Assembly (NCBI GenBank): GCA_959347315.1
Contig: OY365806.1
Coordinates: forward strand, 53,497,862-53,561,861
DNA from: Bimastos eiseni
Taxonomy: Eukaryota > Annelida > Clitellata > Crassiclitellata > Lumbricidae
Length of the DNA: 64,000 nucleotides
Direction of reading: 5' to 3'
In this document: positions 4,992-62,489 of the stretch, in pieces
Position numbering within the stretch: the first letter of the stretch is position 1
Layout: each line of letters starts with the position of its first letter
Notes under the pieces: model-generated
Database searches by the model: none
Seen by the model: the letters and a program-made list of their open reading frames with translations, nothing else
What the model was told of the DNA's origin: nothing
Program-made: the position numbers and the translations under genes

Positions 4992-5158
4992 TTCTGTTAA
5001 GATCTGGAGACAATTCAGGTCCAATGCTGGAGACAAACTGGCAGAAACATTGGTCTCAAACTCAGGACTTAGCACCTGGAAGTAAACAAGTCTTTCAGTC
5101 AGCAGGGAATGTTGTCAATGTCAAAAATGAGTTTGTTGATGAATACATTGCTCAAGAG
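4992..5158 (+). CDS. CHST15-like gene, first recognised exon (luminal stem)
   Basis: The acceptor is TGTATTTGCAG at 4981-4991 and the donor is GAG|GTAAGG at 5159. The exon contributes two bases of a split codon plus 55 codons of hydrophilic stem with no predicted domain (for example SGDNSGPMLETNWQKHW, ending FVDEYIAQE). It ends in phase 0, which agrees with the exon at 12281. It was chosen because it is the only open stretch upstream with clean splice sites and the right phase. Stem regions evolve fast, so family similarity is weak here and the assignment rests on phase and position. A preceding exon ending in phase 1 must exist. Confidence 0.6.
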
Positions 5159-12280: not shown

Positions 12281-12490
12281 CATGATCCAGAGCCAGACGA
12301 AGGCGAATACTACGACAGAGATAATCCAGATGTTGAACAAAAGGATTCCGAGTACATGCAACAGTATCGAAATGATGAGATGATGGGAAAGCAGGACCAA
12401 GCAAAGCCTGGGTCGATGGGTGTAGTGCCGGACATACATGACTACTCACTTCAAGAAAACTTTAGACAGCTTTTCAGAAGCAGTCTTCAA
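12281..12490 (+). CDS. CHST15-like gene, acidic stem exon
   Basis: Acceptor AATATTTCAG, donor CAA|GTATGG, exactly 70 codons, phase 0 on both sides. The product is strongly acidic and polar (HDPEPDEGEYYDRDNPDVEQ, then MQQYRNDEMMGKQ, ending LQENFRQLFRSSLQ), as expected for a stem between the membrane and the catalytic fold. No Cys residues and no domain are evident. The sharp change in composition at both boundaries and the matching phases support it as a real exon, though not a family-diagnostic one. Confidence 0.75.
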
Positions 12491-14706: not shown

Positions 14707-15025
14707 GAAGACATTCAGTTTGAGGAAAACTATGTCAATCCCTGCTGGCCAGAAACGATTCCTAAACTGCCCTACCAGAACAACTCGTACCTTAAGGTAA
14801 AGGAACAGTCTAGTGTTCTTGAACCACAATTCAAATATATGCGGCAGCTGTTTGCACAGAGATCAGATCCAAGCAACCGCTGGCGTCTGCGCTGTCTTCC
14901 ATATTTCTACATAATGGAGACGCCACCAATGGCCACTCCTCGTCTATTCAATGCCCTCAGATTTCATCCGCTCGTTGTCAATCCAGATATGCCAGAGCCA
15001 GAATTCTGGAATCAGCGTGGTCCAG
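14707..15025 (+). CDS. CHST15-like gene, exon with the altered 5' PAPS loop
   Basis: Acceptor GTTTATTCAG, donor CCAG|GTGAGC, 106 codons plus one base (phase 1). The exon opens EDIQFEENYVNPCWPE, reaches the family landmark RWRLRCLPYFYI, and ends PEPEFWNQRGPG where CHST15 has K-E-P-H-W-W. Directly after Y-F-Y-I, CHST-type enzymes carry G-x-P-K-x-G-T-T, whose Lys contacts the 5'-phosphosulfate of PAPS. Here the codons at 14914-14940 read M-E-T-P-P-M-A-T-P: no Lys, no Gly, no Thr pair. The surrounding helix (RLFNALRFHPLVV) is kept. The change is clean, not a frameshift, so it is probably a genuine loss of cofactor binding. Confidence 0.92.
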
Positions 15026-19831: not shown

Positions 19832-19954
19832 AGGGCATTGCTTCACTCAAAGACTACCTGGACATATTTGATGCTGCAAGCGAGAAAATCCGAAGCAACA
19901 CATCAAGTGTTTTGAAGGATGGCAGGATGACCCTTGAGCACCGGCAGGTCACAG
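19832..19954 (+). CDS. CHST15-like gene, Y-L-D-I-F-D helix exon
   Basis: The acceptor GCTTTCATTCAG (ends 19831) was preferred over the CAG at 19815, because only it keeps the frame after the phase-1 donor at 15025. The donor is ACAG|GTGAGT. The 41 codons include KDYLDIFDAASEKIRS, matching the D-Y-L-D-L-F-D-L-A-A helix of CHST15. The segment between this helix and the previous W-W-like motif is shorter than in CHST15. Phase 1 at both ends. Confidence 0.92.
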
Positions 19955-20309: not shown

Positions 20310-20466
20310 GTGATGGTACTAGTTCATATCTGTGGGCAGTTGATAGATGGCGAAATCTCATGGGCAACTTAGGAGAGCCAGAGCCTAAGACGACGGTTCC
20401 TGACATCATCAAGAGACTTACACCGAATGCAAAGATTGTTATGGTCCTTCGTAACCCAACGGAGAG
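20310..20466 (+). CDS. CHST15-like gene, 3' PAPS-loop exon, first half
   Basis: Acceptor TTTAATATACAG, donor GAG-AG|GTCAGT, phase 1 in and phase 2 out, 52 codons. It begins with the G-D-G-T-S-S-Y-L-W stretch corresponding to the CHST15 G-E-A-S-x-S-T-M-W element. It ends NAKIVMVLRNPTER, the strand and loop that hold the 3'-phosphate of PAPS (R-D/N-P-x-E-R). The Arg of the loop is kept. The Ser three residues after the E-R pair is encoded by the next exon and is not conserved there. Confidence 0.95.
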
Positions 20467-21309: not shown

Positions 21310-23300
21310 TTCAGACGGGGTCTTCTTAGTGGTCCCCTTTGTGGTGATTCAGCGGCGCTGGCTGACTACACTTCTGAGGACCTCTCTGCGCTCTATGACA
21401 CAACAATCCTCACTCTACTTGACTCTCTACTTCCCTTTCGACAACACCACGTTCGCTTTCGCCCTCTTCAGCCATGGCTTGACTATCAACGCCGGGCCCT
21501 CCGTCGCAATGTACGTCGTCTGGAGCGGAGATACCGTTTCAATCGTGATCCAGCAGACCGGATCACTTGGATTAATAGCCTCCAGTGACATGCAACCCAT
21601 GAATATGAACATGAATATCAGGCGAGGGAGACAGCTTAATGGGAGGAGTTGGTTGAGAAAGAGAGAGAGAGCGGGGAACCCCATCATCTTTGGGCGGCAC
21701 TCTCGGGTGTCCTTGATCGTTCTGCGGTTCCCTGCTCTTCGATGCAGACTACATTCACTACTGACAACTATCTGAACTATGTTCAATCAAAGATTGATGC
21801 TACTCGCATCACTGTAGCATCACTGCTGATGCTACTCTGCTCTCGTTCTGCACCACTTCAGCCTCTATCTCATCCTGGGATCCTCTACACTCCGACACCA
21901 TCCGACAGCTTGTGCTGGTTGCCTCATCTGAGTCATGGGAACTTGACATACTTTCACCATTTTTATTGAAGTTCTTTGTAGATGATCTTATTCCATTTCT
22001 TAATGTTTTTTGCAATGTTTCTTTAAGTCAGGGTTCGGTTCCAATACTGCATAAGAGGGTGGTATCACTCCCCTCCCTTAAACGACCAGGTATGAACCAT
22101 ACTTTGCCAGCAAACTTCCGTCCTATCTCAAACCTGTCCTACCTTTCTAAGCTTCTGGAGTGCTGTGTTGCCATTCAGTTGGTCAAGTGCCTGGACTCAT
22201 ATTCCCTTATGCCTTCTTTTCAGTCTGGGTTCAGGAAATTCCACTCCATGGAAACCCTCCTGGCCCGCCTTCTGGATGAAATCTTCAGCGCCCTTGACAA
22301 TGGCAGGGTGACCCTTCTTGCATTATTTGACATCAGTGCGACCTTTGATACTGTGACCACTCTATTCTGCTTTCAAGATCACCATTCTAGATCATTCGGC
22401 ATCTCTGGTACTGTGCTCCTCTGTTTCCAATCATTTCTTTCTGATCGGTCTCTATAAGTAGTTTTGGGTCAACTCGCACAGGCTGGGTCCCTCTACCCTT
22501 TGGCCTCCTCCAGGGATCGGTCTCAACCCCACTTCTATTTATCTTATACACCACTGCACTGGGGAACATCCTTAGTCCTCTATGTGTCTCTTCTCACCAG
22601 TATGCTGATGATACACAGGCTTTCTTTCACAGTCTTTCTTCCTCTGCCCAGTTGATGGTTGAGCACATGCTGGAGGCCTCCTCTGTTCTTGAATGTTGGT
22701 TATCCTCTAACCGCTTATGCCTTAATCCTGGTAAAACTCATTTCATTTGGCCTGGTGGGTGCATCCAGCTTGGCAGGATTGACCTTGAGGTTCTTTGTCA
22801 GACCTTCCCCATCTTTCTTTCTCCTCAACTGTTTGGGAATGTGGATCTCTTACTTGACTCCACACTTTCCCTCTCTGACCATGTCACCGCTGTCTGTCGC
22901 TCTTGCTCCTACCATTTGCGCCAACTTCTCTTTATTCGCCAGTCGCTTTCAATGCATGTGGTGATGACATTAGTGCACGCCTTGATCTGCTCCAGGGTGT
23001 ACTTTGGGAATATTGCCTATATTGGTCTTTCCTCGTCTAACATATCTAAGCTTCAGTTTATCCTTAATGCTGCCGCTCGACTAATTGGGGACATCCCTAA
23101 ATTTTCACACATCTCATCTTTCATCCATGACTCTCTTCATTGGCTTACTGCACCTCAACGCATACACTTTAAAGTTCTTACTTTGATGCAAAACTGTCTT
23201 GTTGGCTCTGCCCCGGCTTACCTTTTGGCTCTCTGTACCAGAGTGTCCTCCATTCCCCAACAGGCTTCTGTCCATTCATCAGCCCATGTCAGTGTTTGAA
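21310..23300 (+). mobile_element. LINE copy: linker plus RT domain, CR1/L2-like
   Basis: From about 21400 a linker (F-R-P-L-Q-P-W-L-D-Y-Q-R-R-A) follows the missing endonuclease. RT motifs then appear in order: LPANFRPISNLSYLSKLLE at 22105-22160, FQSGFRKFHSMETLLARLL at about 22220, FDISATFDTV at about 22330, YADDTQAFFHS at about 22597-22630, and thumb sequence to 23299 (NISKLQFILNAAARLIGDIP). The C-terminal W-A-G-S end is missing. At least four frameshifts and several stops occur. It lies in the 14-kb intron between exons 20310 and 34722. A fragment at 41083 has the same RT motifs. Confidence 0.85.
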
Positions 23301-34721: not shown

Positions 34722-34875
34722 GCTTTTCCAGGGTTACATGTCCCAGACGGAGAATCCATCTGCTTCCGACTTCCACTCAAAGACAGGACAAGCTCTGAAC
34801 TCAATGACTTCCTGTGAACAGAAAAGGAACATTCGATCATGTGTTTATGATTCATTTTTAAATAAACGTCTTCCG
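34722..34875 (+). CDS. CHST15-like gene, 3' PAPS-loop exon, second half
   Basis: Acceptor GGTCTATAG, donor CCG|GTATGT, phase 2 in and 0 out. The first base completes the Arg codon of the previous exon, giving N-P-T-E-R-L-F-Q-G-Y. CHST family members carry R-D/N-P-x-E-R-x-x-S, where the Ser contacts the 3'-phosphate of PAPS; here that position is Gln (34729-34731). The rest, including ASDFHSKTGQALNSMTSCE and IRSCVYDSFLNKRLP, follows the D-F-H-E-K-V-T-E-A and R-A-C-V-Y-N-N-T-L order of CHST15. The two Cys residues of that region are kept. Confidence 0.93.
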
Positions 34876-39574: not shown

Positions 39575-39722
39575 GTTAGGCTGCGTATTGGAATGTACTA
39601 TCCATTCATACAAGATTGGATAAATGTTTTTGGAAAAGACCAGGTTAAGGTCATTCGCTATGAGGATTATGTCAGCAATCCAAGTGAAGTCATCAATGAT
39701 GTTTGCTCATTTTTGCAGCTTC
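39575..39722 (+). CDS. CHST15-like gene, IRYEDY exon
   Basis: Acceptor AAATTTAG, donor CTTC|GTGAGTAT, phase 0 in and 1 out, 49 codons. VRLRIGMYYPFIQDWINVFG, KVIRYEDYVSNP and D-V-C-S-F-L-Q-L align without gaps to V-R-L-Q-V-G-L-Y...L-L-D-W-L, I-L-R-L-E-D-H and V-F-Q-F-L-N-L of CHST15. This is the conserved region after the 3' PAPS loop, where most sulfotransferases carry an R-x-E-D/E motif. It is intact here, in contrast to the two cofactor loops. Confidence 0.95.
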
Positions 39723-43038: not shown

Positions 43039-45272
43039 GGGTCTAGGTGATTTCCCCCCGGACATTTCCCCTCGGACATTTTGCCCCGGACATTTCCCCC
43101 CCGGGCATTTCCCCCCGGACATTTCCCCCCATATGTAAGTCACATTTCCCAAGGTCATATATTCTATACCAAAAAACATTACAGTTAGTTTTATTTCGGT
43201 CACAAATAAAAAAAACAATAGTATAAAAACGTGCTATAAGGTGTAAAATTAGCAGTAAATCAGCTGTACCTACTCGAATTTATAGCAAAGGTTTCTAGTG
43301 TTACGCTAAAGTTTGGTGTATAAGCTACACAAAGAAATACTGTGTTCACAGACTAATGTTAAAAGCAATTGCTTTCAAGTAGTCTTTGAGACCGCGGTTA
43401 TCAAAGTCTGCAACGATATTTGCGATTCTTGAAGAACAGTATTTGTATTTCTTCTTTGGTTGCTGTGTCAAATGTCCGCCAAAGAGCTGGTTCAAGGCGA
43501 CGTTGTTCAGACTCTGTTCACGCTTAAGGATGCGAAGGAATCTCCAGATATTTGGGTGATGACAAGTGATGGCAGACTGCATCTTTCGATTCCAGCCCTC
43601 TACAGCATTGTTTGTACGTGGCAAGTCGTTGGTGATGCGCGAGTGCACATTCCAAATGTTTTTGTTGAACACTGGAATTGCTCGACGATTACGCCGAAGA
43701 CGACCGATGTAATTATCTTCGAAGTAATCGACGACAGCAGAGATTTCTTCAGGCAGTGAGTCCTGAAGTGATTTGAATGCTTCGAGAACCTTATCCATTG
43801 GCACGAATGCTAATGCAGGAATCATCCGAATTGACAGTGACAAGTCTGCGTCATTCTGGTCTGGTATCTCTCCTGCAGTCCAACGGCTTGAACTTTTCTG
43901 AAGATATTTTGAGCCAGATGGAAGAAGCATCCATGTGTTGCTACGTCGGTAAAGCTTTCAGTAGCAGCATTAATGGAAGCTTTTTCGAAGTCCATTGTAA
44001 TCGTTCGAGGATGCACTTGAGGTTGTAGCACTTTAATTTCATTAAACAGGCGACGATAAGTATCTTGTGTTTTGTTCGGAAGCAGAATGTACAAACATGG
44101 AACAATCGATCCGAACACAAGAACTTGTATTGTGTACAGCTGAAAAAACAGCTCAGGAACCACCTTAAATGTTCCATCCATGAACCAATGTTCCGAATCT
44201 TTGAGCAATGTTAGCGTACGTTCTGTTCCGAATACGAGGAATCTGTTAAGATCGTCGCAGCCACTGTCGTAGAGGAGAAATTTTTCCCCATCAAGTAAAC
44301 GCTGGTATTCGTCAGGAATTTCAAATGTGCGGTCGGTTGGAAGAGGATGAACGGCATTACTGACCTGCTTCACTCTTCTTACGGATCGCAAATCTCGTAT
44401 GGGGATCATCTGAACAGCAGCTTGCTCTCTGAGTTGCTGCAATTCTTGACCCAGAATTTGTTGAGGGGTTTCTTCTGTTTCCTCGGCCTTTCATTTGATA
44501 CTTGCCCGGACCTTAAGCACCTCTACATGAACTGAATCAGCTGCATGCGTGTGTTCATGCATGTAACCAACAACTGAGAGATCTTCATATAATTTGACCT
44601 TTGCTTTACACTCACTTAAATTTGTGCCTGCACCTCTGCGACGTTCGCACTCGTAACTAATCACATTATTCGCTAATTTTTTTTGTTTAACGTAAACAAA
44701 TCCATTCAAAATAACTTTGTTTTTTCCACGTATACTAGCTACAGTTTCCAACTCCAGCTCGACGGTTTTTTCGCAACTATTTCTTTAACAAATTCGTGGC
44801 ACATTATATAGCAACAAATTGTGCAAACATCTACACTTTATTAAACATTTACTTTAGGCATCAAAGTGAGAGAACATCAATTAATTGATACTCAAAGCAT
44901 GTCAGATTACACAGTAAATAAACAGTCTACCAATGTCCAACACCAATCGCTCTGACAAAGAATTGAATGCTTTGAGTCAATAAATTAAGACTCCATTTAT
45001 TAAGACTCAAAGCATGTCAGATTAAACAGTCTACCATTCTTTCTAACAAAGTGACGGCTTCTGTAACATATTTAGTAAACATCACTTTATTCATTAATTA
45101 GCTAGTTTATTAATTAAGCAGTAAACAGTCTGCCAATGTCCAGCACCAATCTTTCTAACATGGGTCAGTGATCAAAGGGGGGAAATCTCCGGGGGGGAAT
45201 GTCCTACGGGGAATTGCCCGGGGGGGGGGAAATGTCCGGGGGGAAATGTCCGGGGGGTAATGACCTGATCCC
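43039..45272 (-). mobile_element. MULE DNA transposon, 2.2 kb, ladder-type inverted ends
   Basis: The left end is GGGTCTAGGTGATTTCCCCC, and the right end inward GGGATCAGGTCATTACCCCC. Both continue as tandem CCCCGGACATTTCCCC units: about five on the left (43050-43130) and five or six on the right (45175-45262). Between them lies one transposase gene on the complement. Flanks are GGTTAACCG and AATTAAACG, which share only a TTAA core, so the duplication is not demonstrated. This is the only ladder element here that still carries its transposase, and it ties the architecture to the MULE superfamily. Confidence 0.85.
43346..44751 (-). pseudogene. MULE transposase with FLYWCH zinc finger, two lesions
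   Basis: From 44751 leftwards: a FLYWCH-type finger (NGFVYVKQKKLANNVISYEC, then H-E-H-T-H), then the MULE DDE domain with HWFMDGTFKVVPELFFQLYT (first Asp), RTITMDFEKASINAA (second Asp), GCFFHLAQNIFRKVQ and R-T-N-N-A-V-E-G-W-N (Glu). All catalytic positions are visible. A single in-frame TGA (44491-44493) separates the finger from the DDE part, and one frameshift near 43860 precedes the last third (43930-43346). Length, about 470 codons, is normal for a FLYWCH-MULE. Only two lesions suggest recent activity. Confidence 0.9.
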
Positions 45273-45421: not shown

Positions 45422-48400
45422 TTAATTGATAAACGTTATTTTATTGGAGTCAGTGGGTTTGGAATCATGCCCTGCTCTGAACAGATGATCTAAAGAGGAG
45501 GAGTTTAAGAGAAAGAGTTTAAGAGCGCTCTTAAACAAATTATAACTAGGAGAGTTTCTAACTGCAGCAGGAAGAGCATTCCAAACAAGTGGGCCAGTGG
45601 ACTTAATAGAGAATTTTCGTGTATTAGTTCTAGAAGCCAAAACTCGATAGCTGGAGGAACCTCTATAACGTGGGAATGGATCTCAGAGATCTCTTAGTGA
45701 GAAATAATATTGGAATGTTCTAGGTAAGAGATGATTGGTAAATCGATAAACAAAAAGGCCTATCTGTAAATTCCTAATCTCGAAAATATTAAGCAGATTA
45801 AGGTCACGAAAGATAGGGACAGTGTGAGAATTTCTGGGAAGTCCACTGATAAGTCTAACCGCCTTCTTTTGTAATACAATTATTCCGGAAAGTCTGGATT
45901 CGTAATTGGAAGCCCAAATCAAATTACAAAAAGTTATATATGGATATACCATTGTAAAATACAGTTGTTTTCTTATATTAATTGGGAGCTTGTAGGAAAC
46001 TTGGTAAGAATACCAATGGTTTTTGATATTTTGTTGCAGATATAGTTTATATGGGGCTTCCATCTTACGAATTGGTCTACGTATATGCCCAATAATCGTG
46101 CATTTTCAACTTGGTTTATAGAGGTGCCATTTATAAAAATGTTTAAGCTAGATGGCTTGGCCTTCTTGTGTGATTGGAATAATATGTAATTGCTTTTTTC
46201 AACGTTAAGAGTAAGCTTATTTGCTACGAACGAATCAACAACTTTATCCAGTTCCAAATTTAGAGTGTCTATTAGTGTCTGGTAGGAAGCATGAGAATAA
46301 AACAAATTTGTATCATCAGCAAATAGTATCATATAGATGGTGTTGGAAATTGAAGCAAGGTCGTTAATATAAATCAGGAACAACAGTGGTCCAAGGTTAG
46401 ATCCCTGGGGTACTCCATAACTGGTTAACAATAAATCAGAGGTGTGTCCATTACAAAAGACTCTCTGAGATCTATTTTGGAAATAGCTCTCAAACCATCT
46501 CAACGGGGTACCCCTTATGCCATAGTGCTCAAGCTTTTTTAACAGTATAGTATGGTTTACTGTGTTGAATGCTTTGGCCAAATCCAGCAGGACCCCCTTG
46601 TTATCAATAGCTTTAGAAAGTAATTCTTCAGTACCCAGTAGGGCCATAAAAGGGGAGTGTCTGGCTCGGAAACCATGTTGAGTTTGGTGTAAGATTTGTA
46701 AGGAATTGATATAGGAGCTTGATCTTACATGCATAATTTTGTCAAGGAACTTAGCAAAATAGGGCAAAATTGAAATTGGTCGATAATTAGTTATGTTTTC
46801 TTTACTACCCTTTTTTAAAAACCGGAATTACTATTGCAATTTTTGCTTAATTTGGTACCTTGCCATTCCTTAAAACAGTTGATGACATTGGCCAAAATAG
46901 GGGCAATAAGGTCAATGTTGGGAGTGGCAATGTAAAGGAACAATATCATCGCAGCCTTTAGTGTGGGTTTTTTTATGGTCCCGACTTATATCCATGATCT
47001 CAGACGAAGAGGTCATAATCAGTCCCATAGAACCCAACTGGGATGGTGGAAGAAATTGGTCAAATGTTGTAGAGGAGGTAGGGATATTTTTATCTAGATC
47101 ACTTGCAATGCTAGTGAAGTATGCATTAAAGTTATCAGCTATAGATTGCGGATCAGTAATGGTCTCGTTATTTAGGTCAAAGTAGTCAATTTTTGAGTCT
47201 TTAGGAGCCGACTTTAAAATGGTTCTTATAAGGGACCAGGTTTGTTTAAGATCATTGCTGTATTTTAAGAATTCTGATTCGTAATAGCTTTTTTCCGCAA
47301 TAAATTTCAAAGACTTGAACCTATTCCGATAGGCAGTGAATTTTTTCTTGTTGAATTCTGTAGAGTTTTTGTGAAACTTTTTATACAGGGAATTCTTTTT
47401 TGAGCACGATTTTAAGGTCATCCATGGCTGCTTGCATTTTTTACCTCTAGCCGAGCAAGAGTGAGAAAGAGGAAACGCTAGATCATAGTTACCTTTATAC
47501 AAAGAAAGAAAAGTGTCGTAGGCCTCCTCTGTTTTGTTTGAGTTGCACAAGCTGGAGATTGGTGACCAGTCAGTGGTAGTGAGATACTCTCGAAACAAAT
47601 TATGTTTGTCCCTTGTTATTTTTCTAGTAAGTTTAATGGGTTGAGAGTGCAATTTAGGAGTTTTATAAGAAAATCGAGCATATATGGGAAGGTGATCCGA
47701 TATGTCAGCAACCAAAATAGCTGAGTTTATGAGCCTATGGGGTGAATTCGTAAATATGTTGTCAATAAGTGTTGCTGAGCAGATATCAATCCTAGTGGGT
47801 TTTGTGATAACCGGAAGAAAGTGATTAGAAACAAGGTTATTATAGAATATATTCGTGTCAGTGTGTTGGGATGATTTTAAAAGATCAATGTTGAAATCCC
47901 CTGCAAGCATAACCTCCCTAGTCCGATGGTTTAATTTTGTAAGCAGTTCATCAATATTTTCATTGAATTGGACAAGATTTGCTCCCAGAGGCCAATAAAT
48001 CACTCCAATTATGGGGGACTTAGCCTGAAGGTCAAGTTGTATAAAAAATACTTCATAAGAGCTACTAGGAGTAATAGTTTCCATAACATGATACTTTAGA
48101 TTATCCTTAATAAGAAAGCCAACTCCACCCCCCAGCCGATCAACCCGGGCTTTATGTAAAAACGTATAATTTGGAATTGCTATGACTTGTTCAAGTCTTA
48201 CTCCTAGCCATGTTTCAGTAACTGCTAAAATAGTAACTGGCAATGATTCAAGAATTTCACATATTTCATCTAGTTTTGGTAAAATGCTTCTACAGTTTAT
48301 ATGCAAAATAGACAGGTCTGATGGAAAAGCTTCATCGTTTATTCCAACCTTGGCAATTAGCGTGTTGATAGATTTGTAAGGACTATTCCAGTTCGAGTCT

Positions 48401-48648
48401 TGAAAACAATGCTGGTCCGGGTCAATATCAAAATTGTTGGTCGTCACATGTGGTTCAGATTCATAGGGGAACACGTTAAGGTCTAGATTATCCATATTGT
48501 AGGAATGAATTGGCGTAGTGATGAGGCTTGGTGCATGAAGGATGAGAGTCTGTTCAGAGTTAGTCATAGGTGAGAGTAGAATATTCAGACTCGAGCCAGT
48601 GATAGAGAAAAAGAGAAATCTAATCTGAAGAGACAAATAGGTGTTCAC
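45422..48648 (-). pseudogene. LINE ORF2: APE endonuclease and reverse transcriptase
   Basis: The 578-codon first frame (48648-46912) holds the endonuclease: LHINCRSILPKLDEI, ILAVTETWL, DRLGGGVGFLI, LAGDFNIDLL and SDHLPIYARF. RT follows: NYRPISILPYFAKF, LLDLAKAFNTVNH, GVPQGSNLGPLLFLIYINDL and MILFADDTNLFYS (about 46310-46350). The C-terminal Y-P-Y-I-T-F-C-N-L-I-W-A-S region ends STGPLVWNALPAAVRN at 45560-45610. Lesions: two compensating frameshifts near 46930 and 46830, one frameshift near 46050, and one TGA near 45675. The catalytic residues are present. Similar order in the older copy at 5341-6700. Confidence 0.93.
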
Positions 48649-49302
48649 TGAAAAGGTTAATGGAGCAAAGTATACTATACCCTTAGAACAGTATACTAGT
48701 ATACTATTAGTATACTATACCCTTAGAACACGACATTGGATCAAACTATTCGTCCTGTAGTTACTTAGGGTGAATCAGCTAAATGAGAAGATGGCAGTCA
48801 TAACGAGACAGACAAAATGATATAAACATCAATAATTTTAACATGGATCAAAATGTGAAAAGAAGTTCAATACTAGTCCATCCATCACACATAATTTGGC
48901 ATAACAATCAAAGATATGTAATGGCAGACAATGCTATTAGCCATCATGCGAACTAGTCGTTATGATAAATGGACTGTACTGAACTAAGCAACAAATTCAG
49001 CGTAAACATTGGAGCATAAGTGAAATAGGAACGGAGCATAATAAATCATGTGAAAATTCAACACAAATGGGATCAGATCAAAGACTTGTTGTGACGAGTT
49101 CGAAGCGAAGAGACTGCATGAGTCGAACGAAAGAGATGTTGAGTACGTCCGCTGAGTAATCAGATGGATTGAGTCGGAGCACCGAAGAAGTCGGACAACT
49201 TGCTTGATCGCAGAGATGATGCTTGTCCGGAATGTTGGAGAGGTGCGAAGCCAGATGTTGCGATTTTGTCCAAATCGTGTTGCGACGATACTTTGATCGA
49301 CT

Positions 49303-56232: not shown

Positions 56233-56462
56233 CACCATATCCGACAAAGGACCTGGAATCGATGGAAGTGATGATCAAGGATATAGAAAAGAAGCGCAGA
56301 GACAACCAGAAGCTGAAGATTCTATCAGCCACAAGAGCAATGCTCAAAGAGTTTCACAAGAAGCTAAACAAACAACTGGCTAACCTTCTACAGGATGACA
56401 AGTTCTTGTGGCCTGAATTAGAAGTTGACTCAGATCATGTTAAAGAACAGGCAAGTGTGTAA
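56233..56462 (+). CDS. CHST15-like gene, last core exon, with short C-terminus
   Basis: Acceptor TTATGCTGTAG, phase 1 in. It encodes PYPTKDLESMEVMIKDIEKK and then SATRAMLKEFHKKLNKQLAN, L-L-Q-D-D-K-F-L-W. These align gaplessly with the CHST15 C-terminus (T-Q-K-I-L-R-D-F-Y-R-P-F-N-A-R-L-A-Q-V-L...F-A-W). The family normally stops a few residues after this Trp. Here ten further polar residues (P-E-L-E-V-D-S-D-H-V) lead to K-E-Q at 56450. Unspliced reading adds A-S-V and TAA (56460-56462). Spliced reading uses the GC donor at 56451. Confidence 0.93.
56448..56458 (+). other. GC-type splice donor, CAG|GCAAGT
   Basis: CAG at 56448-56450 is followed by GCAAGTGTG. CAG|GCAAGT is the near-invariant consensus of GC-AG introns, which need strong pairing to U1 snRNA elsewhere in the site. 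It falls after a complete codon (phase 0), and the AG acceptor at 61338-61339 opens a phase-0 exon. GC donors are often weak and used alternatively, which would give two C-termini. Confidence 0.6.
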
Positions 56463-56575
56463 GAATGTGTTACAGAATGTTTTAAAGGATGCTGAATACT
56501 TTTATTGTATTGTATTGCTTTTGCAGATTTCGATAGCACATCTCTCAGTACAACCTAATCAGAGGTGCTCTCGGT

Positions 56576-57272
56576 ACATGACATTTAATCACGCAACATT
56601 TAATCACGCGACACTTAAACAACGACACTTAATCTCGACAACACTTAATCTCGCAACACTTAATCTTGAGGACACTTAATCTCGTGGCATATAATCACGC
56701 GACACTTAATCTAAACTCACAACTACTGCGTTTCTTTGGGAGTGGGAATGATTACAACATTTTGATTTAACTATAATTCTTTTAAATTAGCAAAAGGTTT
56801 GATGAAAGAGATCTATTTTAACTACAAGCTGGATCGATGGAAAAAATGCTAAATTTGGAGAAAGGCTGATGAAAAGAATAATAATTTACTGCTTGATTGA
56901 TGAAAAATAATTCTGCTTAAATGGAAGTTTGAATGTTGAAAGAGTGTTCTTTCAATGATAGCTTCTAGTTTAAATACTTGTCATCATTTGCACATGCCAT
57001 CTAAATGCTTTCACTTTTCATCAATCCAGCTTTTATATGATAATGCATTTCATTCTGTTTATGTTCTAAACTCCTAGAATAAATATGCATAAGAGAATCA
57101 AGCTCAGTTGAATCAAGTTCTATTAAGCGCAATTAAGTGTCGCGCAATTATATGTCACGAGATTAAGTGTAGCGAGATTAAGCGTTGTCAAGATTATGTG
57201 TCATGAGATTAAGTGTCGTCGGGATTAAGTGTCATTGTATAAGTGTCGCGAGATTAACTGTCGGCACACCAT
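56576..57272. mobile_element. Ladder-type MULE-like element, 697 bp, 9-bp TSD
   Basis: Flanks GCTCTCGGT (56567-56575) and GCTCTCAGT (57273-57281) differ at one of nine bases; 9-bp duplications are usual for MULEs. The left arm (56580-56710) is eight to nine units of CGACACTTAATCTCG type. The right arm (57120-57262) is eight to nine inverted units (CGAGATTAAGTGTCG). The centre (56715-57115) is non-coding and contains TTTCATCAATCCAGCTT, similar to 27370-27415. Confidence 0.8.
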
Positions 57273-57281
57273 GCTCTCAGT

Positions 57282-58000
57282 GCGAAAAGTCCTATGCAAA
57301 AAGCATGTGGGCAGAAGCATCCCCCAATTAAAGTCAAGGAGTGAATCATAGAGGGGATATTGTTCCAAAGGAAATGGTCAACCAACACATTACCTGGGGT
57401 TTGGGTATCACTTGGTACTGGGCAGAAGCCACCTGTGTCCAAGGCACCAAGTCTAAAGAACGAAGATAATGACGAGAGGCAGCCAAAAGAGGATGACGGA
57501 TAAGGTCACACAGATAACGTAGAGCTTGACCCAAAAACACACTGGAGTAGTGGAGGTAATGAAATTAACTTTACACCATGAGCAGAAGCCTAGGTGAATG
57601 CTCAGTCATGAAGGTCACAATATGTAAGAATCAGATGGTCATTTAGCACCGGTTGAAGAGCTGACAGTGGACATAATGGAAGATCAATTAATACCGAGTA
57701 ACTGTAATCTATGCATGAGCAGACAAAAGCAAGTACCATAGAGGCGAAAATATAGGGTGGAACAGCTTGAAAATGCACCAGTTTATTCATGAGCAAGGCT
57801 ATCTAGACAATTGATCAATGACAGGATCCCTTGGAAATAAAAATGCAGCCTCTAGTCCGTTAGAAAGGAACCAACCCACTGCAGCACAGTTCCATATAAT
57901 CTGAATTGCCTCTTCAGCCAATGCAGCAAATGCTTTGGTTGACTGAGTCAAAAGCAGTGCTAAGATCTAGTGGACCCAATAAAGGGTCCATATTGCTCTG
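57282..58000 (-). mobile_element. Reversed LINE RT fragments, rearranged
   Basis: On the complement, L-D-L-S-T-A-F-D-S-V-N-Q-S-I (about 57990-57945) is RT motif A. Further left, VPPYIFASMVLAFVCSCIDY and L-P-L-C-P-L-S-A-L-Q-P-V-L-N (57765-57645) are the post-RT region found in CR1-like ORF2. The YADD box between them is missing, so there is an internal deletion. It abuts a LINE in the opposite orientation at 58005. Confidence 0.65.
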
Positions 58001-58004
58001 TCAC

Positions 58005-58921
58005 ACCCTCATCAGTCTGGTAAACTAAAACTGGAAGAATGCCTCTCATCCATATATGCATGGTTCTGTTTCAATGGTTTGGTCATAAACCCAGACAAGT
58101 CTGAAGCAATTGTATTTGGCTCATGTCAACTCCTGCGTTCTTTCCCTATGCTCTCTAGCATTGAACTGGCGGGCACTGCTGTGCTGCTTTCAGACTCTGT
58201 CAAAACACTTCGGGTTACCCTCGACAGCAAGCTCACATTTCGACCTCGCATAACAAGCCTTTGTAAATCTTGTTTCTACCACATCAGGGCAATACGTCAC
58301 ATAAGGTCGGCTCTAACTCAAAATATGTCTGAAACTATAGCCTGCTCACTTGTCTCCTCTCGCCTCGATTATGCTAATTCACTTTTTGTCGGTCTCTCAG
58401 ACCTTGAACTCAAAATGCTTCAACGTATCCAAAATACGTTAGCTCGAGTAGTGCTACGTGTCCCCCTACGAACATGCTCTTCTGCCCTACTTCACCAGCA
58501 GCATTGGCTCCCTGCTGAATTCAGAATCAAATTTAAGTTAGCTTGTTTGACCTACAAAGCCATCATCACTAGTACACCTACCTATATTCATGCTCTACTA
58601 CCTCCTTACATTCCTCCTCGTTACTTACGATCATCAAGTACAGGTCTTTTAGTTGAACCACGATGCAGAACAGTTATGGGCTCTCGTGCATTTCATGTCT
58701 CTGCTCCTAGGGAATGGAATCGACTGCCACTCTCTCTTCTTAGCTCAAATTCACTTCCTTCCTTCAAGATGCGACTCAAAACTCACTATTTCTCTTTGGC
58801 TTTCAAGGATTTGGAAATCTAATTGCATCTTCTCCTGGCGACTGACTATCCGCGCCTCAGATTCGCATTTAGGTGTGACCCTGTGTGCGTTACAAATTTA
58901 TTTTAATAATAATAATAATAA
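58005..58921 (+). mobile_element. LINE ORF2 C-terminal third with ATT/AAT tail
   Basis: A 247-codon open frame (58079-58822) starts just after the RT active site (LVINPDKSEAIVFGSCQLLR). It includes D-S-K-L-T-F-R-P, SCFYHIRAIRHIRSALTQN, V-S-S-R-L-D-Y-A-N-S-L, Q-R-I-Q-N-T-L-A-R, LPPYIPPRYLRSSST and FHVSAPREWNRLPLSLL, to the stop. The tail is AATAATAATAATAAC at 58908-58922. It is intact over this length, so it is a relatively young, 5'-truncated copy of a CR1/L2-type LINE. Confidence 0.88.
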
Positions 58922-58926
58922 CAGAA

Positions 58927-59317
58927 GGGTTCTACGTCTTTTGATCCCCCGTCAGTTGATCCCTGTCATGTCCCTTCATGCTGTAACAGATTACGGTCGT
59001 TCGGATATTCTTTTATATCTCAGAGCAATGGCCCATTTATCCCATAAACGTATAAACGCTCATGCTTAGGACTTTATGCTGATAAACTTATCATATCATG
59101 ACTCTCAATACGCTTTTGCATTTTTTTCCATTTTAACAATTCATGGTCTTTTACATCATTCTTTTAATAAATGGAGAAGGTCATAAGTGGAACATGAATG
59201 CCCATGAATTGGGCTGGGTTCAATAGGCAGGGGATCAATTGACAAAGGGATCAATTGACTAGGGGACCAATTGATGGAGGATCAACTGATGGGGGGGGAT
59301 CAGTTGACGTGATACCC
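58927..59317. mobile_element. Ladder-type inverted-repeat element, 391 bp, TTGATCCCC motif
   Basis: Left end GGGTTCTACGTCTTTTGATC then CCCCGTCAGTTGATCCC. Right end inward GGGTATCACGTCAACTGATC then CCCCCCCATCAGTTGATCC. The right arm has five GGGATCAATTGAC-like units (59228-59308), the left only two or three. There is no ORF inside. The element begins directly at the AAT tail of the preceding LINE. The target duplication is not clear. Confidence 0.75.
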
Positions 59318-60089
59318 AATAAAGTGACGTATAAACCATCTGCTGCATTGAGCAAAGTCTTACAAAATTTGCATGAGAGCTGTTTTGGTTGAGTGGTTAT
59401 GCCTAAGTGGAAAGATGACGGCCTAGCATCCAGCTGTTTGTCTGCACATAATCAATGAATTGCTAAGCAACAGTGTAGTTTGCAATATTTGATATGGCTG
59501 TCAGATTGGAACAGGGGTACAGTTTCTGCAGTCAATTGAGCAATTGGGTGCAGATTCCAGTGATAAAGTATCTCAATATGTGGTGATGGTATCATTGCAC
59601 TGTGATACTGTCGGATGTGTAAATCTTAGTTAAGTTGTTCTACAATTTTCTTTTCGATCATTTGTCACATATTAGTCAAGTATTGTATCGATTTATTTTC
59701 CTATATGGTTGTTGCATATGAAGTGACTCCTAATTGGATGGGTAACTGTGAACTGACTGTGAAATGCTGCCCACTATTTCTATAACTTCTTTGTTTTGAC
59801 GATAATTTTGCTCTGGGATTAATCAACTAGCCTGGATTTGTGGCCCTTCAGGTTGCGCTCATTGTACCGAGTCATGCAGCATGGCGTCGTAATGTGGCTG
59901 ACATTACCTTTAGGTTTTAGTAAAGTCCTTCTTTACCTGACCCTCTTTGCAGTTCCCAATTACTGGTTTAAAATAACTTCAGGAACAGGCAGTGCTTAAA
60001 ACTAATGTCTGGAAACAGCAGGCACTAATGTATTCATAATGTAATGTATGTATCTATCTGGATATTGTTAAAATATGGTTATAACAATA
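59318..60089. other. Intronic or intergenic stretch without recognised features
   Basis: Nothing recognised. Confidence 0.5.
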
Positions 60090-60780
60090 TATCTGTTCGA
60101 GATCTCGGCCTCCTTCTTGACCCTACGCTTTCCCTATTTGGTCACATAAATGCCCTTTCTGGCTCCTGCTTCTATCACCTGCGCCAGATCCGTTGTATTA
60201 GACAGTCGCTCTCATTGCATGCTGCGTCCACTCTTATGCATGCTCTGATCTATTCTAGGGTCGACTTTGGCAACATTGCCTTCATTTGACTTTCTTCTCA
60301 CAACATCTTTAAGCTTCAGTCCTTTCTCAATGCGGCTGCCCTGATTAATTGGTGGAATTCCAAAATTTTGTCACATCTTTTCCTTTATTCATGAAGCCCT
60401 TCACTGGCTTCCTGCACCTCGACGCATTTGTTTCAAAACCTTTGCGTTGATGCGTAATTGTCTCCTACCTTCTGGCTCTCTGCACTAGGGTCTCCTCTCT
60501 TCTGCACGGGGTTTCCCTTCGTTCTTCTGCCCGCTGACTTCTGGTGGCTCCCCACATGTGCTCTGCCATGGCCCAATGCAGGAGCTTTGCCTATGTGAGT
60601 CCCACCAGCTGGAACAGCCTTCCCTTTCGTATTCGAATGGAACTGTTCTCTCTCTCTCTCCTGCTGCCTTCCGGAAGGGCTTGAAGACTTTCCTTTTCTC
60701 TTTAGCTTTGTGTTGAGCCGTGAGCGCCTCTGATTCGAGTAGCACTATTAGTGCTCCATTACATTACATTACACTACAAG
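60090..60780 (+). mobile_element. LINE ORF2 C-terminal relic with CATTA-repeat tail
   Basis: SVRDLGLLLDPTLSLFGHIN, SCFYHLRQIRCIRQSLSLH and Y-S-R-V-D-F-G-N-I-A-F-I (60095-60290) are the post-RT region. Frames then shift through L-N-A-A-A-L-I to R-S-F-A-Y-V-S-P-T-S-W-N-S-L-P (about 60582-60622), matching the fragment at 25105. The tail is (CATTA)n at 60755-60775. Confidence 0.8.
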
Positions 60781-61339
60781 TAACTTTTCAAGGCTTTGGA
60801 ACATGAAATGAATTAATGAATGATTGTTCAATTGAACAAATTAACAGTTTTACGCTTTCACTACAACTACATATATTTTTCTACTTTTTATATATTATCT
60901 ACATTTCTTAACAAGGTAACTATGATTTATTTATTATGTTTGTTTATTCTATTTATGCATACTTTTTGTATATCTATTATATAAGGTCACAATGATATGT
61001 CAGGTTTTAAGGTAAGGGTTTTAAGGTTCATATAAATAAAAAATAACATAAGTTTTCAAGTAGTAAAAAATGTTAATCTTAGAACAGCTTGAACTCATTA
61101 AGGTCTGGCAGATCAAAGCATAGTAGGCAATGGCTTAAAATATTTTGACTGTAAATCAGTGTGCTGCAAAAGATGACTTGTTTACTTTGTGTCGCCATTT
61201 GCAGAAGTTATTTGCACAAGGACGGCTAAACAACCTGCTTAACAATGGCTTTAGCCCAATGAACATGGCTGTATGGGTTGTTGTCAAATTATTTCCGAGT
61301 TTGAATAGTTGCAACTATAGCTTGTCATTTTGCTTGTAG
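60781..61339. other. Non-coding stretch before the repeat exon
   Basis: AT-rich and without similarity. Its end, TTTTGCTTGTAG (61328-61339), is a good pyrimidine-containing acceptor for the exon at 61340. An open frame at 61145-61339 runs into the exon in frame but has no supporting features. Confidence 0.45.
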
Positions 61340-62287
61340 TTGGCACCTACTGAAGCCCAACAGAGAGAACTTGATGAAAGGCAGGTTCAAGAAAAAGAGA
61401 AATTAGCAAGAGAACAGCAAGTCAAAGAACAACAAGCCAAAGACCAACAAGCCAAAGAACAACAAGCCAGAGATCAACAAGCCAGAGACCAACAAGCCAA
61501 AGACCAACAAGCCAGAGACCAGCAAGCCAAAGAACAACAAACAAGAGACCAACAAGTCAAAGACCAACAAGCCAGCAAAGAACAGCAAACCAGAGACCAG
61601 CAAGCCAAAGAACAACAAGCCAGAGAACAGCAAGCCAGAGACCAGCAAGGCAAAGAGCAACAAGCCAAAGAACAACAAGCCAGAGAACAACAAGCCAGAG
61701 AGCAACAGGCCAGAGAGCAACAAGCCAGAGAACAGCAAGCCAGAGAACAACAAGCCAGAGAGCAACAGGCCAGAGAGCAACAAGCCAGAGAACAGCAAGC
61801 CAGAGACCAGCAAGCCAAAGAACAACAAGCCAGAGACCAACAAACCAGAGACCAACAAGCCAGAGACCAGCAGGCCAGAGACCAACTGGCCAGAGAACAA
61901 CAGGCCAGAGAACAGCAGGCCAGGGAGCAACTGGCCAGAGAACAACAGGCCAGAGAACTGCAGGCCAGGGAGCAACTGGCCAGAGAACAACAGGCCAGAG
62001 AACAGCAGGCCAGAGACCAACAAGCCAGAGACCAACTAGCTGGCAAAGAACAGCAAACCAGAGAGCAACAGGCCAGAGAGCAACAGCAAATTGATCAGAT
62101 GAGAGCGCAGCAAAATCGAATAAATCAACAAGTGCAGCATCAGGGACAACGTACCCAGGACCAACAGGCACAACAGAATCAACAACTAGGGCAAGATCAG
62201 AGAATACATTATCAGGCACAACAGAATCAACAACAACAGAATCAACAACAACAGCTAGGACAAATAATTCAGCAAAGAGCACAATAA
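61340..62287 (+). CDS. Gln-rich pentapeptide-repeat exon, likely alternative C-terminus
   Basis: Acceptor TTTTGCTTGTAG, phase 0, 315 codons to TAA at 62285-62287. It opens LAPTEAQQRELDERQVQEKE, then has roughly 45 copies of [E/D]-Q-Q-A-[R/K] (15-base DNA unit, 61405-62080), then a Q/N-rich end. No initiating ATG occurs at its start, which argues for an internal or terminal exon. Charged, Ala/Gln-rich repeats of this kind favour a long single helix or coiled coil. Phase and order fit splicing from the GC donor at 56451 of the CHST15-like gene. It could instead belong to a separate gene with unseen upstream exons. The frame is open despite heavy repetition, so selection on it is likely. Confidence 0.75.
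   Translation: MAPTEAQQRELDERQVQEKEKLAREQQVKEQQAKDQQAKEQQARDQQARDQQAKDQQARDQQAKEQQTRDQQVKDQQASKEQQTRDQQAKEQQAREQQARDQQGKEQQAKEQQAREQQAREQQAREQQAREQQAREQQAREQQAREQQAREQQARDQQAKEQQARDQQTRDQQARDQQARDQLAREQQAREQQAREQLAREQQARELQAREQLAREQQAREQQARDQQARDQLAGKEQQTREQQAREQQQIDQMRAQQNRINQQVQHQGQRTQDQQAQQNQQLGQDQRIHYQAQQNQQQQNQQQQLGQIIQQRAQ
61405..62080 (+). repeat. 15-bp coding minisatellite
   Basis: The units vary around CAGCAAGCCAGAGAA and CAACAAGCCAAAGAC, about 45 in tandem, with a higher-order block (61681-61740 and 61741-61800 nearly identical) showing recent unequal exchange. The only length changes are multiples of three. The open frames on the complement here (rich in Ser/Leu/Ala/Cys or Leu/Trp/Val) are shadows. 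Confidence 0.9.
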
Positions 62288-62489
62288 ATTGAGAACATTG
62301 TTCATCAAGGACCTAGTAAAAGTAGCCAGCAATTCACCCGCATAAGGCATTTATTTGGTACTGCTTTTTGGGTGTCATTTAGAACAGCTTGGCTCTTAAA
62401 TTTCATTTTAGAATCTGCAATACTACTACACCCTATATAATTTCAATTGCTAAATATTTTTACATGTTGATATATTGAAATTCTGAACA

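Follow-up and report, generated by a model that had tools for sequence, protein, structure and literature searches.

A CHST15-like gene of Bimastos eiseni with altered sulfate-donor motifs and a probable Gln-rich C-terminal exon behind a predicted GC-AG intron

Background

One of the closest described systems to the gene reported here is CHST15 (GalNAc4S-6ST). The gene lies in 64,000 nucleotides of the annelid Bimastos eiseni (Lumbricidae; assembly GCA_959347315.1, contig OY365806.1, positions 53,497,862 to 53,561,861 of the forward strand), a stretch that we call the window and number from its first letter. Its protein has the NPCW, RLRCLP, and VRLRIG motifs and the sulfotransferase fold, as CHST15 does, but differs from it in an altered P-loop and 3′ motif for binding 3′-phosphoadenosine 5′-phosphosulfate (PAPS) and in a Gln-rich tail past the conserved last Trp. 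With the sulfotransferase domains of NDST1 and HS3ST, identity was 18–19%, and PQKTGTT stood opposite TPPLAVP in a weak local alignment (negative domain score).

SULT4A1 is also a conserved protein with a sulfotransferase fold, and according to PMC11275347, no PAPS-dependent activity has been described for it. Unlike the window protein, it is cytosolic, belongs to another family, and keeps the PAPS-domain residues. It is not known to have a Gln-rich tail. The splice junction resembles GC-AG introns such as intron 10 of Caenorhabditis elegans let-2, with a GC donor and the rest near consensus (stated for GC donors in general in PMC2490688). Regulation of let-2 was tested, whereas alternative use of the window donor is hypothetical.

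Results

The window contains one open frame of nine exons (4992–62287, + strand) that, with splice sites fixed, ends in a single terminal stop and encodes a CHST15-like protein (Table 1). The eight core exons were placed by tblastn with four relatives (P0001–P0004), which also matched the tail region, by composition. Of the introns in this model, only the last is GC-AG; the other seven are of the GT-AG kind. No start exon with a transmembrane anchor was found in the window. The ninth exon encodes a Gln-rich tail, most plausibly the regular C-terminus of the protein.

An earlier note on this DNA proposed that a weak GC donor could switch this tail onto a Golgi sulfotransferase. We confirmed that the last core exon (56233–56450) runs to CAG/GCAAGT after a full codon, and that with the donor ignored, A-S-V and a stop codon follow, the latter ending at 56462. 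On a position matrix, the donor scores 8.86 with no penalty applied for C at +2, its only departure from the consensus, and it is the only one of the 2,851 plus-strand GC dinucleotides in the window to score so high. GC donors account for less than 1% of sites and their remaining positions are nearer the consensus (Churbanov et al., PMC2490688). Thus, the donor is good for its kind and not simply weak. A low score would be no ground to dismiss a site either, since the model's own donor at 39722 scores only −0.29.

Acceptors were taken as CAG or TAG with a pyrimidine fraction of at least 0.6, which 45 of the 501 AGs between 56456 and 63900 pass. The site directly before 61340 (TTTTGCTTGTAG/TTG; pyrimidine fraction 0.71) opens a phase-0 frame of 315 codons with TAA ending at 62287, 312 residues beyond the read-through form. 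It is the good site that the note described, but not the next one downstream: earlier acceptors at 58016 (within a long interspersed nuclear element, LINE; 268 codons), 58499, 58502, and 60489 open phase-0 frames of 75–268 codons, none of them Gln-rich. The junction has the features of a U2-type GC-AG intron, namely an AG/GCAAGT donor, an AG acceptor with pyrimidine tract, and a kept frame.

A search with the joined core and tail, restricted to the core, retrieved seven proteins among 2,680 candidates. The four closest (P0001–P0004, protein records only, from JGI/Logan contigs) are 46–50% identical and 703–745 residues long, and a profile search added no further close member. After the last conserved Trp, each of the four carries on with a tail of 157–235 residues and 13–35% Gln, and they form one clade with the window protein (100/100). 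This strongly supports the note's assignment of the Gln-rich exon to this gene, as the four tails are Gln-rich or Gln/charged. A tail-less member of about 545 residues, within the length limits of both searches, was not found, and none of the four has a short read-through-like end. A Gln-rich tail is absent from all five canonical relatives (P0005–P0009), of which P0006, P0008, and P0009 are named carbohydrate sulfotransferase 15 or 15-like: P0005 continues for 20 residues past the Trp, P0007 and P0009 stop within a few residues of it, and P0006, a shortened isoform, is hardly informative about the tail.

Across the six frames of the window, stop-free stretches of 100 codons with at least 20 Gln occur in a single place, in two overlapping frames of the same 15-nt repeat. 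In a DNA-only alignment of its 45 copies, differences from the consensus at codon positions 1, 2, and 3 numbered 4, 19, and 56, a count to be read as support and not as a formal selection test; 44 of the 3,003 choices of five columns equal this result. Indels are limited to two in-frame insertions of 3 nt. An earlier count on 38 units chosen by protein pattern was biased and was replaced by this alignment. Other frames of the repeat also run long without a stop, so the open frame by itself is little proof of coding. As a coding minisatellite, it may differ in length among individuals.

The window tail alone was predicted by AlphaFold as a helix over residues 5–314 (310 of 315 residues; mean predicted local distance difference test 81.6, predicted template modelling score 0.30), from the single sequence and using no alignment. 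Repeats of such kind tend to be predicted as helices. In P0001, a predicted helix (585–640) is followed by a low-confidence Gln-rich end. Like single alpha-helix (SAH) domains, the repeat spaces E/D and R/K four residues apart; unlike the R/E/K-rich SAHs, the window tail is Gln-rich and less charged. A Pfam match of the tail to HC2 (30.6 bits, cutoff 40) fell below cutoff and was put down to composition. By eye, the tail stop codon falls inside an AATAAA hexamer (62283–62288), and a poly(A) site could sit very near the stop.

In the enzyme domain, the sulfate-donor-binding residues appear to be lost, with the fold kept. Family motifs were found in the alignment and a sulfotransferase fold was predicted for P0001. 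Pfam Sulfotransfer_1 passed the cutoff on P0001–P0004 and, among six single open reading frames (ORFs) of the window, on the exon at 39575 alone. A single exon searched against PDB returned only matches at chance level, and the window had no Rfam match at gathering threshold. Instead of the 5′-phosphosulfate-binding loop PKCG[ST]T with its PAPS-binding Lys, the window has TPPMATP and the four close relatives PPxA[TV]P. The 3′-phosphate-binding motif RDPxxRLYSDY reads RLFQGY in 5/5 clade members, with Arg kept and Ser replaced by Gln; in the window, the Gln codon at 34729–34731 takes the place of the canonical 3′-phosphate-contacting Ser. Both the Lys and the Ser are absent in 5/5 clade members and present in 5/5 outgroups. 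The designation as a Golgi sulfotransferase is thus probably wrong as to activity. Among the five clade members, the core remains conserved (mean column identity 65%). An N-terminal helix is predicted in P0001 (32–70), with a similar start in P0002 and P0004, and P0003 lacks it.

Discussion

We consider it likely that the tail is constitutive, ancestral to the clade, and carried by a CHST15-like domain without catalysis. The protein would be a type II membrane or secreted one that enters the secretory pathway, with the Gln-rich tail as its normal C-terminus. The last intron would be an ordinary U2-type GC-AG intron in which consensus bases at every other donor position compensate for C at +2, so that the 56450 to 61340 junction would be mainly constitutive. 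In Bimastos eiseni, the 15-nt minisatellite may have rewritten the ancestral tail and lengthened it in frame. Since the PAPS-binding Lys and Ser are lost, the most likely role of the domain is to bind a glycan or partner with no sulfate transfer, and the tail could serve as a rod-like helix or an arm for self-association. All in all, the product is most likely a non-catalytic glycan-binding protein of the secretory pathway with a helical tail. If true, the five proteins make up a conserved clade of CHST15-like pseudo-sulfotransferases to which a structural tail has been added; among open-licence PubMed Central papers, we found none on such repurposing. The locus would likewise illustrate how a coding minisatellite can extend a protein tail in frame, and its simple junction lends itself to tests of GC-AG splicing.

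Several points weigh against this reading. Motifs are the sole basis for the proposed loss of catalysis, the [KSP]EP motif keeps its Glu, and P0001 and P0003 bear the name of the enzyme in their source. The repeat copies may share ancestry. The P0004 tail has just 13% Gln, and the canonical P0008 (from the gastropod Babylonia areolata) also has a charged C-terminal tail of 175 residues (Gln fraction 0.04), so having a C-terminal extension is not in itself unique. Moreover, 75 window residues at the junction (12 of the core, 63 of the tail exon) have no clear likeness to the relatives' tails beyond composition: of 300 shuffles, 60, 20, 108, and 251 reached the score against P0001, P0002, P0003, and P0004, and 158 that against P0008. 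We therefore rejected tail-to-tail alignment as proof of homology, and the link of the window tail rests on position, composition, and frame. Among the relatives' own tails, the score was reached by 0 of 300 shuffles for P0001/P0002 and P0003/P0004, 4 for P0002/P0003, 8 for P0001/P0004, 14 for P0002/P0004, and 46 for P0001/P0003. Against the P0008 tail, 102–274 shuffles reached it.

The regulated switch of the earlier note would set the GC donor against intron retention (ASV) or the GT donors at 56455 and 56459 to control tail inclusion. There are indeed GTs 4, 6, and 8 nt past the GC donor (56455, 56457, and 56459), and joined to 61340 they would give the 5-residue end AIGTY, a kept tail with Ala-Ser added (317 residues), and an out-of-frame end of 24 residues. 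According to PMC2490688 and PMC7242645, enrichment of GC donors is also seen in genes with alternative splicing, let-2 being a tested case. However, these GTs score 1.89, −5.46, and 0.18 against the unpenalized score of the GC site, so that the true gap is smaller; use of 56457 would retain the tail; the short form is not among the relatives found; and the first AATAAA past the read-through stop is at 57078, 616 nt downstream. Altogether, we regard the switch as unlikely. A combined version, in which a CHST15-type sulfotransferase became a non-catalytic glycan binder with a helical Gln-rich arm whose inclusion is set by GC and GT donors within 8 nt, appears rather improbable.

Two other explanations concern the exon and the domain. 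It is very improbable that the Gln-rich ORF lies outside this gene, whether as a minisatellite that does not code or as an exon belonging to a different gene. The stop-free alternative frames and the poor alignment of window and relative tails would fit this, but tails stand at the same place in all four close relatives, the repeat varies at third positions with in-frame indels only, and the Gln fraction is highest in the phase-0 frame (0.38 with flank, versus 0.01 and 0.14). In addition, the ORF needs an upstream exon because its one in-frame ATG sits late, at 62099. Retained sulfotransferase activity with PAPS held in an altered pocket, which is compatible with a constitutive tail, seems quite improbable too: the conserved core and the retained Glu agree with it, whereas the clade-wide loss of the P-loop Lys and the 3′-phosphate Ser does not. 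The constitutive tail on a non-catalytic domain remains our preferred reading.

Other features of the locus

Table 1. Features of the CHST15-like gene in the window
Feature	Positions	Strand	Evidence
Exon, stem region MLETNWQKHWSQTQ..., first visible	4992–5158	+	tblastn to P0001–P0004; GT-AG sites, frame
Exon, acidic stem EYYDRDNPD	12281–12490	+	tblastn, frame
Exon with NPCW motif and degenerate 5′-phosphosulfate loop METPPMATPRLF (14914–14949) in the place of PKCGTTDL	14707–15025	+	tblastn, frame, alignment
Core exon DYLDIFDAASEKI	19832–19954	+	tblastn, frame
Core exon TGDGTSSYLW ... VLRNPTE	20310–20466	+	tblastn, frame; Pfam Sulfotransfer_3 below cutoff
Core exon RLFQGYM...	34722–34875	+	tblastn, frame; altered 3′ motif at 34722–34740
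Core exon VRLRIGMYYPFI ... VIRYEDY	39575–39722	+	tblastn, frame; Pfam Sulfotransfer_1 above cutoff
Last core exon, end ...FLWPELEVDSDHVKEQ, phase 0	56233–56450	+	tblastn, frame
GC-AG intron GCAAGT ... TTGTAG, 4,889 nt	56451–61339	+	sequence, donor/acceptor scoring
Read-through end A-S-V-stop upon intron retention	56451–56462	+	sequence, frame
Last exon, Gln-rich tail of 315 residues with stop, predicted as one long helix	61340–62287	+	frame, composition, AlphaFold
45 copies of 15-nt repeat encoding mostly (Q-A-R/K-E/D-Q)	61405–62085	+	repeat count, DNA alignment

The earlier note counted three LINEs and two miniature inverted-repeat transposable elements in the last intron. We recovered two LINE fragments (58016–58597 and 60101–60534, by similarity to a LINE at 22445–23299) and two inverted-repeat elements. 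One, just past the GC donor (56596–57261), has 115-nt inverted arms that are 81% complementary and consist of short ACACTTAATCTCG-like repeats; the other, at about 58927–59317, is weaker. A third LINE did not emerge: the ORF pieces at 58653–59066 and 60489–60713 were unmatched, the latter also in Pfam.

Another intron of the gene holds remains of a MULE-type transposase on the minus strand (43346–44490), with a Pfam MULE match on 43822–44490 and no Pfam match for the ORF at 43346–43957. Also on the minus strand, a LINE ORF of 600 aa (46912–48714) has endonuclease/reverse-transcriptase relatives, with identity of up to 47% among the best 120 of 144.
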